Virus record (IMG/VR): IMGVR_UViG_3300013133_000009
Span: 1-48,659 of that record
Length of the DNA stretch: 48,659 bases
Reading direction: 5' to 3' (one strand)
Source: a virus
Part shown: piece by piece, positions 2,789-36,723 of the stretch
Layout: every line of letters starts with the position of its first letter
Numbering within the stretch: the first letter of the stretch is position 1
The notes under the pieces: generated by a model
What the model saw: the letters and a program-made list of their open reading frames with translations, nothing else
The model's database searches: none
What the model was told of the DNA's origin: nothing
Translations under genes and position numbers: made by a program

Positions 2789-2800
2789 AAATGTTATAAT
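2772..2800 (+). promoter_or_regulatory. Promoter upstream of portal gene (TTGTCT-17-TATAAT, extended -10)
   Basis: TTGTCT (2772-2777), a 17-bp spacer ending in TGT, then TATAAT (2795-2800). The -10 lies just after the terminase stop codon. The expected start is near 2807, giving a leader of about 45 nt before the portal TTG start. Confidence 0.7.
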
Positions 2801-9586: not shown

Positions 9587-9595
9587 TGATATAAT
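9587..9595 (+). promoter_or_regulatory. Extended -10 promoter (TGA-TATAAT), no -35, prohead protease operon
   Basis: TG-A-TATAAT with the hexamer at 9590-9595. The bases 16-18 bp upstream (CAAGTGTT region) do not resemble TTGACA. The expected start near 9602 leaves about 23 nt before the protease ATG at 9625. Confidence 0.65.
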
Positions 9596-9624: not shown

Positions 9625-10473
9625 ATGTCAGAAGACGCTTTTAATTTTGTAATTCCAGCTAAGTTAAATAGTGAAGTTCCTGGTTCTTATAAGATTTGGG
9701 GGCTAGCTTCTACTTCTTCTTGGGATCAACAAGGAGAAAAAGTGTTACAAGAAGGTATAGATTTAACCCCCATTAAGGAAGGAAGGGGGTATTTTAATTT
9801 TGAACATTCTTCTGCCCCCGAAAACAGATTGGGTCGAGTAGAGGGTTACAAACAGGGGCAAGAACATTTATACGTACATGGAGAGTTGTTTAAAGGAAAT
9901 CCCCGAGCCGATGCGATCTATGCTATTATGAAGGCTCTTGAAGATCGCGGAGAATCCGCTGTTGGGTTGTCTATTGAAGGTAACGTTATAGAAAGAGACC
10001 CTTTAGATAAAAAAATTATAAAGCGTTGTATTATAAACAATATATCTTTAACCATGAAGCCAGCTAATAATGAAACTTATGCCTCTTTAATGAAAAGTTT
10101 GGGGGCTGCAACTTTAGAGTTTAATTGCACAAAGCCAGAAAGAGGGGTAGAGAGTAATGTTTCTACCGAAATTCCAATCTTTACTACATCTCAAGTCTTT
10201 GATATTATCCAAAAAGCATTAGCTGTATCTCAAAATTATGGAACTACAGCTCCCGTAAATCTTTCTGGGGGTTCCGCTCTTGCTCAATCTACCTTATCTT
10301 CTAAAAAAGATAAAGAAGTAGAAAAGGTAGATTTTAAAGGAAAACCAATCAAAGAGTGTATTTCTCATATTCTAGCAAACTTGAAAGCTTTATATCCAAA
10401 CGAAACAAACGAAACTTTATTAGAAGCTTTAAAGCGTAGGATTGTCAAAAAACAAAAACCCGGTATGTTATAA
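9625..10473 (+). CDS. Prohead (capsid maturation) protease
   Basis: 282 residues. Serine protease of the HK97-type prohead family, which cleaves scaffold and capsid termini during maturation. Candidate catalytic residues are His61 in GYFNFEHSS and Ser116 in SAVGLSIEG; INNISLTMKPANNE (138-150) resembles the conserved segment before the domain end. Residues 195-223 (starting IIQKALAVSQNYG) nearly repeat the major capsid protein N-terminus (its residues 25-54), an unusual tail after the protease domain. The position before scaffold and capsid genes supports the role. The final codons overlap the next promoter. Confidence 0.82.
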   Translation: MSEDAFNFVIPAKLNSEVPGSYKIWGLASTSSWDQQGEKVLQEGIDLTPIKEGRGYFNFEHSSAPENRLGRVEGYKQGQEHLYVHGELFKGNPRADAIYAIMKALEDRGESAVGLSIEGNVIERDPLDKKIIKRCIINNISLTMKPANNETYASLMKSLGAATLEFNCTKPERGVESNVSTEIPIFTTSQVFDIIQKALAVSQNYGTTAPVNLSGGSALAQSTLSSKKDKEVEKVDFKGKPIKECISHILANLKALYPNETNETLLEALKRRIVKKQKPGML

Positions 10474-10474
10474 T
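10466..10474 (+). promoter_or_regulatory. Extended -10 promoter (TGT-TATAAT), no -35, capsid genes
   Basis: TG-T-TATAAT with the hexamer at 10469-10474; it overlaps the stop codon of the prohead protease. A TTGTCA lies at 10442-10447 but its 21-bp spacing is too long for a normal -35. The expected start near 10481 leaves about 34 nt before the ATG at 10515. Confidence 0.65.
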
Positions 10475-14783: not shown

Positions 14784-14788
14784 AACTA

Positions 14789-14817
14789 TTGACATAATTT
14801 CTGGTTTGGTGTAGTAT
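14789..14817 (+). promoter_or_regulatory. Sigma-70-type promoter (TTGACA-17-TAGTAT)
   Basis: Perfect TTGACA (14789-14794), a 17-bp spacer and TAGTAT (14812-14817). A TATAAC overlaps at 14815-14820 with a 20-bp spacer. There is no properly spaced TGN here, so this is a -35-dependent promoter. It is followed by a leader of about 40 nt before the ATG at 14864. Confidence 0.7.
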
Positions 14818-19098: not shown

Positions 19099-19107
19099 TG
19101 TTATAAT
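19099..19107 (+). promoter_or_regulatory. Extended -10 promoter (TGT-TATAAT), no -35
   Basis: TG-T-TATAAT with the hexamer at 19102-19107, beginning two bases after the preceding stop codon. The -35 position reads CTTTTT. The expected start near 19114 leaves about 33 nt of leader before the ATG at 19147. Confidence 0.65.
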
Positions 19108-19146: not shown

Positions 19147-19575
19147 ATGGCAACTAATCAAGAATTTTCTGATATTCTGCTTAAGCTTTCTGACTTAAAA
19201 TCTGATTTTAAATCTGAGCTTTTTGAGTTAAAATCTGATTTTAAATCAGAGCTTTCTGAGTTAAAATCTAACTTAAAGCTAGTTATGAAGGATGTTGAGT
19301 GGATCAAAGAAGAAGATCGACAACAAAATCTTCTTTTAGAAGAGCATATCAAAGGTGTGCAAGTTAACGAAAAACGCTTAAATCTTGAGATTGCTAACAG
19401 AGAGGAAGAAGCAAAAGAAATTCACGAAACGTTAACGGAGTTGAACGAAAGAGTAAAACAAGTAGAGTTTGTTCCTAACTTTATGATTAATCTACGTAAA
19501 ATAATTCTTTGGATTACTCCAATTTTATCTATTTTGGGATTAGGAACAGCATTTTATTTGAATTGGGGACCCTAA
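19147..19575 (+). CDS. Coiled-coil protein with C-terminal membrane segment (holin-accessory-like)
   Basis: 142 residues. The N-terminus contains three near-identical 11-residue repeats (LSDLKSDFKSE, LFELKSDFKSE, LSELKSNLKLV; nt 19186-19278), then a coiled coil to about residue 110. Residues about 118-139 (IILWITPILSILGLGTAFYL) form one membrane span. A coiled coil followed by a C-terminal span is the layout of XhlA-type proteins, which assist holins in some phages. The position among virion genes is odd for lysis, so a membrane-linked virion or injection protein is also possible. Confidence 0.6.
   Translation: MATNQEFSDILLKLSDLKSDFKSELFELKSDFKSELSELKSNLKLVMKDVEWIKEEDRQQNLLLEEHIKGVQVNEKRLNLEIANREEEAKEIHETLTELNERVKQVEFVPNFMINLRKIILWITPILSILGLGTAFYLNWGP
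19186..19278 (+). repeat. In-frame 33-bp repeat, three copies
   Basis: Three consecutive 33-bp units encode the 11-residue heptad-like repeat at the N-terminus of the coiled-coil membrane protein. Copies start at 19186, 19219 and 19252; the third is diverged and shortened at its end. The pattern suggests recent internal duplication that could expand or shrink the coiled coil. Confidence 0.85.
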
Positions 19576-20814: not shown

Positions 20815-21560
20815 TGAAAACAAGTGACCAATTATTAGATATTTCTCATGAAGGAACCCTTATTGGGTATACTCAGAAAGGAAATCCAATATATCTGGAT
20901 TATTATCACGGGGGGCATTCTGATTTTTCTAAGTCAGAAAGAAATGATGCTCTGAAGTTACACAATAAAATTTTAGACAAAATATATGCTAAACTTCAAG
21001 AAGCTAAAATAAACAATAACTCCATTCCAAAGAAAATAACAGAGTTTATAGATTATCACAAAACACAACAAGAGTTGTGGTCTGGAGGAGTATTTAATAA
21101 ATCAGAAGTCTCATTAGAGCAGGGGTTAGAAACAGCTACTATCGAAACTGGGCTACATGCTCAGGACATGAATGTTGCTATTCAGCATCCATTATATGCA
21201 GAAATTTTAGAGATCATGAAAACCCACATGTTGGGGGACGCTCCTTGTTGCATAAATCTGACCCCAACTTTAATTTTGGAGTTGGTTAAGGCAGAAGAGG
21301 GTTTGTATTCAGGCATGGTAAAGGGTGTGCATTCAGTTGAGGGGGGATTTGAACACCTGTTTAATTTTAAATCCATCCCTCTAGCTTCTCTTTTTAGTAC
21401 CCTTTTAGCCAAAGAGTATATTACTCTCCCAACAAAAGAAGAAAGTGTGGTTGAAACCCTTCTAGAATCAACAGCAATAGAAGATCCCATCACAACTAAA
21501 CTTAAAACTTTATTAGACTTGCTTTCTAACTCTTATAAAGATTTACATATTCACCTATGA
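20814..21560 (+). CDS. Protein of unknown function in neck module
   Basis: 248 residues. The N-terminus reads GTLIGYTQKGNPIYLDYYHG, then HSDFSKSERNDALKLH; I recall similar GxTxxGxPIY...H...DA..LH segments in other phage genes of unknown role. The rest is helical, with a Leu-rich end. No enzyme motif is sure. It is translationally coupled to the adaptor gene, so a neck or internal head role is likely. Confidence in the gene is higher than in any function. Confidence 0.55.
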   Translation: MKTSDQLLDISHEGTLIGYTQKGNPIYLDYYHGGHSDFSKSERNDALKLHNKILDKIYAKLQEAKINNNSIPKKITEFIDYHKTQQELWSGGVFNKSEVSLEQGLETATIETGLHAQDMNVAIQHPLYAEILEIMKTHMLGDAPCCINLTPTLILELVKAEEGLYSGMVKGVHSVEGGFEHLFNFKSIPLASLFSTLLAKEYITLPTKEESVVETLLESTAIEDPITTKLKTLLDLLSNSYKDLHIHL

Positions 21561-21566
21561 TATAAT
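21558..21566 (+). promoter_or_regulatory. Extended -10 promoter (TGA-TATAAT), no -35
   Basis: TG-A-TATAAT with the hexamer at 21561-21566, overlapping the preceding TGA stop. The -35 position reads AAGATT. The expected start near 21573 leaves about 15 nt of leader, containing AAAAGG, before the ATG at 21588. Confidence 0.65.
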
Positions 21567-22214: not shown

Positions 22215-23021
22215 TTGTCTAATATTGGGGAACCTTCTAACAATACTAAAAATTTATATGGTTGGCAGGTAAAAAAACCCGTAATTCTTCCCAAAAAATC
22301 CACATCTGCTCAAAGAAATAGAGTTGATATGGAAATAAGTAAATTAGAAAATCTTTTAGCAGAACATGCAGTGAGAGTACGGGTTTTCCGTACATCTTTT
22401 TGTCCAAACATCAAATCCATAGATGGTGCTGAACATAATTTGGGTTGTACAATTTGTAATGGATCAGGACTTATTGATAGGCATCCCATATGTACTCATA
22501 GCTTCCTTCAAACCCAAACCCTTCAACCCCACAACTTTCCTGAAGGTTGGGTTTTAGATAATGCCGTAGCAGCGACTTTTCCTATTGGAATAGAGCTTTT
22601 TTATTTTACACTTGTGGAATTAATGGATTATACAGAGATTTTTACTCAAAATGTACAGAGACAAACAGCTACTCCTGATGTTTTAAAATATTCTGCCTGT
22701 AGAGTAAATTTTATTATGGGTTCTAATGGTGTAGAGTATTATCAAGAGAGAGATTTTAATATAGATAACAACGGGTCTATTGTTTGGGTTACGGGAAGGG
22801 GTCCAACTACCGGATCTATTTATACGATTCATTATGAAGCAGCAGTACAATTTAGAGCTATTCGTGCTCTTCACTCTAATAGGTTTGTACCAGTAGACGA
22901 TGGTGCCGGGATAAAGCAAGTTAAGGGTCCAGAACAGTGGATTCTACAAAAAGAGTTTCTTGTGAGACGAAACGACTTTACTGGCACCGAATTACCACCC
23001 AATAAGATTAATCCAATCTAG
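22215..23021 (+). CDS. Putative neck protein with zinc-binding motif
   Basis: 268 residues, TTG start at 22215 with AAGGAT (22203-22208) upstream. A Cys cluster lies at about 73-95: FCPNIKSIDGAEHNLGCTIC followed by NGSG, resembling a short zinc ribbon. The rest is beta-rich, with an alternating pattern through YQERDFNIDNNGSIVWVTG and the end WILQKEFLVRRNDF. Such single zinc-ribbon neck proteins occur in contractile-tailed phages between adaptor and tail terminator. The exact neck position is inferred. Confidence 0.5.
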   Translation: MSNIGEPSNNTKNLYGWQVKKPVILPKKSTSAQRNRVDMEISKLENLLAEHAVRVRVFRTSFCPNIKSIDGAEHNLGCTICNGSGLIDRHPICTHSFLQTQTLQPHNFPEGWVLDNAVAATFPIGIELFYFTLVELMDYTEIFTQNVQRQTATPDVLKYSACRVNFIMGSNGVEYYQERDFNIDNNGSIVWVTGRGPTTGSIYTIHYEAAVQFRAIRALHSNRFVPVDDGAGIKQVKGPEQWILQKEFLVRRNDFTGTELPPNKINPI

Positions 23022-23084: not shown

Positions 23085-24425
23085 ATGTATCAATCCACTA
23101 ATACCTTTCCTCGGAGTCATAAGCTTAACGATAAACTCCTTACTAAAGAAGAGGAAGTAGACCTTTTTTTTAATATGGAAGTATATGAAAATGAAATGTT
23201 ATCCTTATATTATAAAAATGAAGCTTTACAAAAGGAGCTTAGTTCGTTCTTAGAAAGTTGTGAAGAGGGTACTTATAGTGAGTGGGTTCGTCCTTGTAAA
23301 GAAGAAACACTCTCTCCAGAAGAATTGAATGAAAAAGTTTTTGATACTTTGAACTCTTATTTGGTTAGCAAAGATTCACTTGAAGAAGTTAGTAAAAATC
23401 TTTTAGATTTAAATTTAAATCCTAAATTTTTTATAGATGTGAATAAGTATCTTTTTAAACGATATAAAGAGGTTATGACTTTAACTGAAAAGATTAAAGA
23501 AGTATTTGTAGAGTTAAATGTTGTTGAAGAATATGAATATTTTTATTTTTTACATAAACATACAAATAACAAAGATTTGCCCCCAGCTATTATTAATCTA
23601 TTAACGCAACAAAATACAAACCTTGAAGATTTATATAATTCTCCCTACTCCAATCCACATTTCTTAAATACTTTTAAAACAGCTATAGAAAAGTTAAAAA
23701 TCTTTTCAATGAAAGTTGAAGCCATAAAACAGAAATTAATTTATAAAAATTTACGATTAGTATTCTCTAGGGCAATTCGTTTTAAAAATAGGGGGTTAGA
23801 TTTAGATGATTTGAGACAAGAGGGAAGTCTTGGACTCATGAAGGCTATAGATAAGTTTAATTATAAGTTGGGTTGGAAATTCTCTACCTACTCTACTTAT
23901 TGGATAGATTTAGCTATTTCCAGAGCTATCTACAACAAATCTGACATAATTAGAATCCCTGTTTACATGAGAGAAGTATTAAATAAGATTACTAGATATA
24001 CTAGAGAGTTTGTATTAGAAAACGATAGAGAGCCTACCGATTCAGAATTAGCAAATCTTATCAAAGTTCCCATAAGTAAGATAAAAAAAGCTAGACAAAT
24101 CAATACAGAAATTATATTTTTATCAGCCCTAGATACTACTATTTTTGAAGAAGATCGCATTGGGGAAGAAGTGTTTGATCCAGCCCAAAAAGACATTTAC
24201 GCTGAGGTTTTAAAACTTACACTTTTACAAAAAGTTAAAGAAGAATTATCTAAACTATCCCCGCATAGTGAAAAATTAATTAGGCTTAGGTTTGGGATAG
24301 GGGAATCTGAGACCCAAAATATTGGAGTTCTCAGCCAATTATATAATGTAGATGAGGAAGATCTTTCAATTATTCAGGAAAAAATAGTAGAAGATTTTCA
24401 AAATCCTTCTACAAAACTTAAATGA
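23085..24425 (+). CDS. Sigma-70-family RNA polymerase sigma factor
   Basis: 446 residues with full primary-type architecture. Region 1.2 (about 18-40) begins LLTKEEEVDLFF. An extended non-conserved segment is followed by region 2 (about 214-288), with DLDDLRQEGSLGLMKAIDKF and GWKFSTYSTYWIDLAISRAI. Region 3 (about 290-345) includes IPVYMREVLNKI, the part that reads an extended -10. Region 4 (about 384-440) starts ELSKLSPHSEKLIRLRFGIG. Its recognition helix reads VDEEDLSIIQEKI instead of the usual V-T-R-E-R-I-R-Q-I-E, so the basic -35 contacts are gone. It would redirect host core polymerase, probably to late genes. Placement inside the neck genes is unusual. Confidence 0.88.
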   Translation: MYQSTNTFPRSHKLNDKLLTKEEEVDLFFNMEVYENEMLSLYYKNEALQKELSSFLESCEEGTYSEWVRPCKEETLSPEELNEKVFDTLNSYLVSKDSLEEVSKNLLDLNLNPKFFIDVNKYLFKRYKEVMTLTEKIKEVFVELNVVEEYEYFYFLHKHTNNKDLPPAIINLLTQQNTNLEDLYNSPYSNPHFLNTFKTAIEKLKIFSMKVEAIKQKLIYKNLRLVFSRAIRFKNRGLDLDDLRQEGSLGLMKAIDKFNYKLGWKFSTYSTYWIDLAISRAIYNKSDIIRIPVYMREVLNKITRYTREFVLENDREPTDSELANLIKVPISKIKKARQINTEIIFLSALDTTIFEEDRIGEEVFDPAQKDIYAEVLKLTLLQKVKEELSKLSPHSEKLIRLRFGIGESETQNIGVLSQLYNVDEEDLSIIQEKIVEDFQNPSTKLK

Positions 24426-24431
24426 TATAAT
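24423..24431 (+). promoter_or_regulatory. Extended -10 promoter (TGA-TATAAT), no -35
   Basis: TG-A-TATAAT with the hexamer at 24426-24431, overlapping the sigma-factor stop. The -35 position reads ATCCTT. The next ATG (24436) lies five bases after the hexamer, so a transcript from here would have essentially no leader. Confidence 0.6.
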
Positions 24432-26355: not shown

Positions 26356-26364
26356 TGTTATAAT
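26356..26364 (+). promoter_or_regulatory. Extended -10 promoter (TGT-TATAAT), no -35
   Basis: TG-T-TATAAT with the hexamer at 26359-26364. The -35 position reads CAGATG. The expected start, seven bases after the hexamer, is 26371, which is the A of the next ATG. Confidence 0.65.
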
Positions 26365-29486: not shown

Positions 29487-29495
29487 TGATATAAT
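29487..29495 (+). promoter_or_regulatory. Second extended -10 promoter (TGA-TATAAT), no -35, tail operon
   Basis: TG-A-TATAAT with the hexamer at 29490-29495, 31 bp downstream of the first -10. The -35 position reads AATGTG. The expected start near 29502 precedes an AAGGA ribosome site and the ATG at 29519. Confidence 0.65.
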
Positions 29496-36693: not shown

Positions 36694-36723
36694 TTGTCAT
36701 AACCCTAAAATATGTGTTATAAT
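36694..36723 (+). promoter_or_regulatory. Promoter (TTGTCA-18-TATAAT, extended -10), baseplate wedge genes
   Basis: TTGTCA (36694-36699), an 18-bp spacer ending in TGT, then TATAAT (36718-36723). A second TATAAT at 36728-36733 lacks TGN. The expected start near 36730 leaves a leader with AGGA (36747-36750) before the TTG start at 36758. Confidence 0.7.

Follow-up and report, generated by a model that had tools for sequence, protein, structure and literature searches.

Which promoters can be recognised by a sigma factor whose -35-reading helix has become acidic? The question is raised by a gene for a sigma-70-type factor (23085..24425, + strand) in 48.7 kb of DNA from an uncultivated virus, a fragment the whole of which was analysed and is referred to below as the window. 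Nearly all genes of the window are on the + strand; among them are those for terminase, portal, protease, major capsid protein, tail sheath and tail fibre. With SPO1-like phages its capsid and sheath proteins share about 23-30% identity. Two tandem repeats were also noted: a perfect array of 4.9 copies of the 18-base unit TCTAAATTAACGCTTAAC at 33-120, just upstream of the terminase gene, and a repeat with a 33-base period (2.6 copies at 92%) at 19184-19269, inside the 19147 gene. No Rfam RNA was found in the window.

The open reading frame is exact (446 aa, ATG start, frame intact according to the ORF list), and the assignment is based on Pfam, the PHROG 351 profile (match 2.8e-42), alignments to RpoD and an AlphaFold model. 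The first-pass annotation, made from the letters alone, held that regions 1.2, 2, 3 and 4 are all present, as in a primary sigma factor. Regions 2 (aa 219-282, 23739..23930, +; PF04542, 1.4e-12) and 3 (aa 297-347, 23973..24125, +; PF04539, 5.7e-8) were found by Pfam, whereas regions 1.2 and 4 were not found in the Pfam scan of the window sigma at E<=1 and are supported by alignment and AlphaFold. For region 1.2 (aa 18-44, 23136..23216, +), the first half of which has diverged, the support consists of the LLTKEEEV motif, a predicted helix at residues 21-44 with a pLDDT of about 90, and Pfam region-1.2 matches that occur in relatives only. Region 4 (aa 371-446, 24195..24422, +) is covered by a phmmer alignment, and the alignments to RpoD extend to residue 442-444 of 446, i.e. 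through this region; it is too diverged for Pfam, yet its predicted fold is that of sigma-4, with helices at 371-388, 393-403, 413-419 and 424-438. Unlike a primary sigma, the protein has no region 1.1 and begins, by alignment, at about region 1.2. In the AlphaFold model (mean pLDDT 78.8) regions 1.2, 2, 3 and 4 as well as the non-conserved region contain helices. The structures that it matches best in the PDB are chains of E. coli sigma-70; these matches run over its full length at low TM scores (about 0.35-0.44), which we attribute to a different placement of the domains. Identity to enterobacterial RpoD over regions 2-4 is about 36%. That such a protein is rare for a phage, as had been stated, was an overstatement: tblastn with the sigma gave matches in 171 of 50,697 phage records (bacterial DNA among them), and PHROG 351 is a profile of phage sigmas that both the window sigma and its relatives match. 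Single-sequence searches of IMG/VR found little in the way of close sigma or sheath relatives.

What sets the window sigma apart is the recognition helix of region 4, VDEEDLSIIQEKIVEDFQ. Over the positions aligned to E. coli 583-599 (24351..24401, +) the sequence is DEEDLSIIQEKIVEDFQ, with the changes T583D, R584E, R586D, R588S, Q589I, R596E and R599Q (E. coli numbering), while E585 and K593 are retained. In E. coli, R584, E585 and R588 have been tied to positions -31 and -33 by genetics and structure (PMC2613000); in the window the -35 contacts of a primary sigma (R584, R588 and Q589) are E, S and I, and are thus lost. The net charge over 583-599 is -6; for the 22 sigmas used for comparison, nine from phage relatives and 13 from bacteria, it lies between +2 and +5, and among the sigmas compared the acidic helix is present in the window sequence alone. 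A frameshift artefact at the helix could be excluded: the 'NPS' of the window is in register with the 'HPS' of RpoD, and the other two frames have no sigma-like helix. Region 2.4 reads YWIDLAIS and differs from RpoD/SigA by W433Y, R436D and Q437L, with D275 at the R436 position, and further by T440S in E. coli numbering; W433 and Q437 are otherwise nearly constant among the aligned sigmas, and mutation of R436 in E. coli can impair binding of the promoter duplex (PMC2613000). In region 3.0 the equivalent of E458 is kept as E297, and the H455 equivalent just upstream is Y. Both the acidic -35 helix and the altered region 2.4, noticed at first from the letters, were thus borne out at aligned positions. 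We found no description of a sigma with an acidic region 4 in the open-access literature.

The intergenic DNA of the window indicates what kind of promoter such a sigma might serve. Its top shared 9-base pattern is an extended -10 element, TGNTATAAT, which occurs nine times in the sense and never in the antisense orientation. The exact copies in the window (n=9) are all on the + strand and all at gene boundaries. Specifically, TGTTATAAT stands before the portal gene (2792..2800), before a small ORF, the 10743 gene and the major capsid protein gene (10466..10474), before the 19147 gene (19099..19107), before a small ORF and the tail sheath gene (26356..26364) and before the 36758 gene (36715..36723), and TGATATAAT precedes the head protease gene (9587..9595), the 21588 gene (21558..21566, no other exact site upstream lying closer to the sigma gene) and the 29519 gene (29487..29495); a further TGATATAAT starts at the stop codon of the sigma gene itself (24423..24431). 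The part of the window that is not gene interior amounts to 7.4%, and randomly placed sites would all nine land there with a probability of about 7e-11; TATAAT carries TG in 9/15 cases outside gene interiors vs 0/39 inside genes (Fisher p 9e-7). T4-type TATAAATA late boxes were considered as well and are not enriched, with 4 on the + and 9 on the - strand, 4.1 expected per strand and a shuffle maximum of 10. A TTGACA-17-TAGTAT arrangement in an intergenic gap (14784-14817) differs from the -35-less sites and may be a promoter of the host sigma; such matches are overall at chance level.

No -35 element beyond chance was detected at the nine sites, either by scoring for TTGACA or TTTACA or by a motif-blind test. 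Plain hexamer scoring was insensitive on unfiltered T4 sites, and the motif-blind test therefore carries the weight for the absence of a -35; on T4 as positive control this test recovered TTGCTT at -32, and 0/60 shuffles were as good. It gave no upstream element, whether -35 box or activator motif, in the window or in the related genomes G014, G005 and G017. Across 58 gene-start sites from nine sigma-bearing genomes (the phage contig from a metagenome-assembled genome, MAG, described below was added later and is left out) the columns at -36 to -30 hold <=0.08 bits each, a value to be read with the bias that picking exact TGNTATAAT sites introduces toward promoters needing no -35. The same sites have T at -6 in 47/58 and A near +1 in 37/58, and this conservation is, as judged from the alignment of sites, as would be expected of real promoters.

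The lack of an upstream motif bears on one way of explaining the helix, namely that region 4 has been repurposed so that its acidic face binds a basic partner of phage or host (an activator or the polymerase itself), the sigma being activator-dependent in the manner of T4 gp55 with gp33. Such a role would suit a surface whose charge is inverted while the fold is kept, and T4 offers a functional analogy: the late promoters of gp55 and gp33 have a -10 element only, as those of the window sigma would, gp33 binds the flap in mimicry of sigma-4 and leaves DNA unread, its fusion to gp55 gives a pseudo-sigma that depends on an activator (PMC2988020), and E64 and E65, two acidic residues of gp33, face the zinc-binding domain (PMC7892883). 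In T4, however, the task is divided between two proteins, whereas in the window regions 3 and 4 belong to one polypeptide. We consider this repurposing distinctly unlikely, as the acidic face is present in one sequence only, there is no candidate partner and the sites lack an activator motif.

Relatives of the window phage allow the helix and the promoters to be compared within one lineage. Alignment of the capsid protein identified 28 contigs at 57-65% identity and one near-identical contig. The same kind of sigma is present in four capsid-relative contigs; alignment of the sigma added four further records, one of them also with a related capsid gene, and a tenth sigma comes from a phage contig that binning had assigned to an Omnitrophota MAG. 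These relatives are fragmentary records in which genes were called by simple ORF calling. The MAG contig (L199 / G023:C4, JAJVIE010000002.1) was considered as a pointer to Omnitrophota as host and rejected: it is a 100-kb related phage contig of 34% GC in a genome of 64% GC, so the binning is probably wrong. One of the related contigs (G004) has a predicted tmRNA gene at L010:15793-16201. In the sigma tree the ten phage sigmas form one side of a branch against the bacterial sigmas (support 95/92). The window sigma has the longest branch in this tree, and its exact place in the clade is therefore uncertain; it also fails the Pfam region-4 cut-off that was passed by 7/7 relatives scanned and, in this and in its acidic -35 helix, differs from those other PHROG 351 members.

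A long branch, W433Y and Q437L at nearly constant positions and the missing Pfam match for region 4 could be the marks of a sigma gene that is degenerating and whose product no longer works as a sigma. We regard this as highly improbable, given a frame that is intact over 446 codons, regions 2 and 3 that Pfam still recognises, matching promoter-type sites that are still there and a conserved place in the genome. Specifically, a virion structural gene matching phrog_1004 lies just upstream of the sigma gene in the window (22215..23021, +), and the sigma gene adjoins a phrog_1004 gene in four phages (window, G014, G006 and the MAG phage), which argues for long residence at that place.

Within the clade the recognition helix varies from canonical in G019 (TRERIRQIE) and near-canonical in G020, G021 and G014, through eroded in G004, G005 and G006 (TKMGVRLVQ-like), to acidic in the window. 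The extended -10 motif is present in most relatives' genomes, among them G014, G005, G019-G021 and the MAG phage. Since G014, G019, G020 and G021 combine a canonical or near-canonical helix with -35-less sites, an acidic helix is not needed for such sites and the loss of the helix did not create them. The prediction of poor -35 recognition made from the lost arginines is supported by the nine -35-less sites of the window and by the motif in most relatives, but helix loss as the cause is not supported. We infer instead that loss of the -35 box is lineage-wide and that helix loss followed or was tolerated after it; on these comparisons the acidic helix would be the extreme of relaxed or redirected selection and not the cause of -35 box loss.

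Neither does the glutamate of region 3 account for the use of TG. A glutamate retained for extended -10 contacts had been pointed out, and it is indeed kept (E297); across the clade, however, E458 has a glutamate counterpart in the window, G019 and G021 and an aspartate (D) in G014, G020 and G022; the remaining members have F, W or G there and still carry TG in their sites. The retained glutamate is consequently a poor predictor of extended -10 use, and E458 was rejected as the determinant of TG reading. The R436 position is acidic in 10/10 clade sigmas (D in nine, E in one) and R in 13/13 bacterial sigmas. By the alignments this is the most constant departure of the clade, and in the F/W/G members it may be this acidic residue that reads TG.

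Whether the phage sigma is what reads these sites has to be weighed against the host. The host primary sigma might read the nine sites as ordinary extended -10 promoters, TGn -10 elements being read by E. coli-type sigma-70 (PMC2613000), with the phage sigma serving promoters outside the fragment and region 4 changing for unrelated reasons. In line with this, G017 (121 kb) has some motif sites with no sigma detected in the fragment. G016 (101 kb) likewise has some sites and no detected sigma, and in G022 the sigma is present and the motif weak, so the association between sigma and motif is suggestive and incomplete. Against reading by the host, no other shared intergenic motif was found in the window that might be the target of the phage sigma, and G010 (IMGVR_UViG_3300045051_000172), a 119-kb capsid relative, has neither the sigma nor any TGNTATAAT site. 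Moreover, Kayvirus promoters of like shape appear only late and were ascribed to a phage sigma (PMC7698491). Taken together we find reading by the host sigma possible, if rather unlikely.

The Kayvirus comparison can be extended. The mapped late promoters of Kayvirus vB_SauM-515A1 (Herelleviridae) are TGTTATATTA and have no -35 boxes, and their assignment to a phage sigma is that of the authors (PMC7698491); those of Listeria phage CKA15 are TGYTATAWTA, likewise without a -35, and the CKA15 sigma is most abundant mid-infection (PMC12282133). Like the predicted sites of the window, they combine an extended -10 at virion genes with the lack of a -35 and are T-rich just downstream of the -10, and the capsid and sheath proteins of these phages are distantly related to those of the window. 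The -10 core, in contrast, is TATAAT in the window and not the TATATT of the Kayvirus/CKA15 type. Of the organism names in the sigma tblastn, the ten that occur most often do not include Staphylococcus, and by that test the Kayvirus sigmas are not close relatives.

The reading that we favour, with moderate confidence, is that the gene encodes a phage sigma of the sigma-70 family for promoters consisting of an extended -10 only, in which region 4 docks on the polymerase without reading DNA. Late transcription, in a contractile-tailed phage whose virion genes are SPO1-like, is probably its role. Contacts of the protein with the host core polymerase would be made by regions 2-3 together with region 4, whose fold is one that docks on the flap, and for promoter recognition it would need nothing but the extended -10 box, TGNTATAAT, after which a T is frequent. 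Region 4 would keep its fold, and its DNA face, acidic and without -35 contacts, would leave the upstream DNA unread and probably repel it. The functional analogue of such a region 4 is gp33 of T4. A stronger form of this proposal, which we think unlikely, is that in a one-piece sigma region 4 has given up reading the -35 and become an acidic module that docks on the flap and repels DNA. Such a protein would be a natural counterpart, in a single chain, of T4 gp55 plus gp33, and late transcription would depend entirely on the extended -10 box or on an activator from the phage.

For phage K, the structure and function of late promoters have been described as not understood (PMC11598898), and the present clade provides a comparison for the -35-less late promoters that RNA-seq has mapped in Kayviruses and CKA15. 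It forms a natural series in which one -35-less promoter type occurs with canonical, eroded and acidic -35 helices, and which lets the role of region 4 without a -35 box be tested, be it docking alone, basal repression or contact with an activator.
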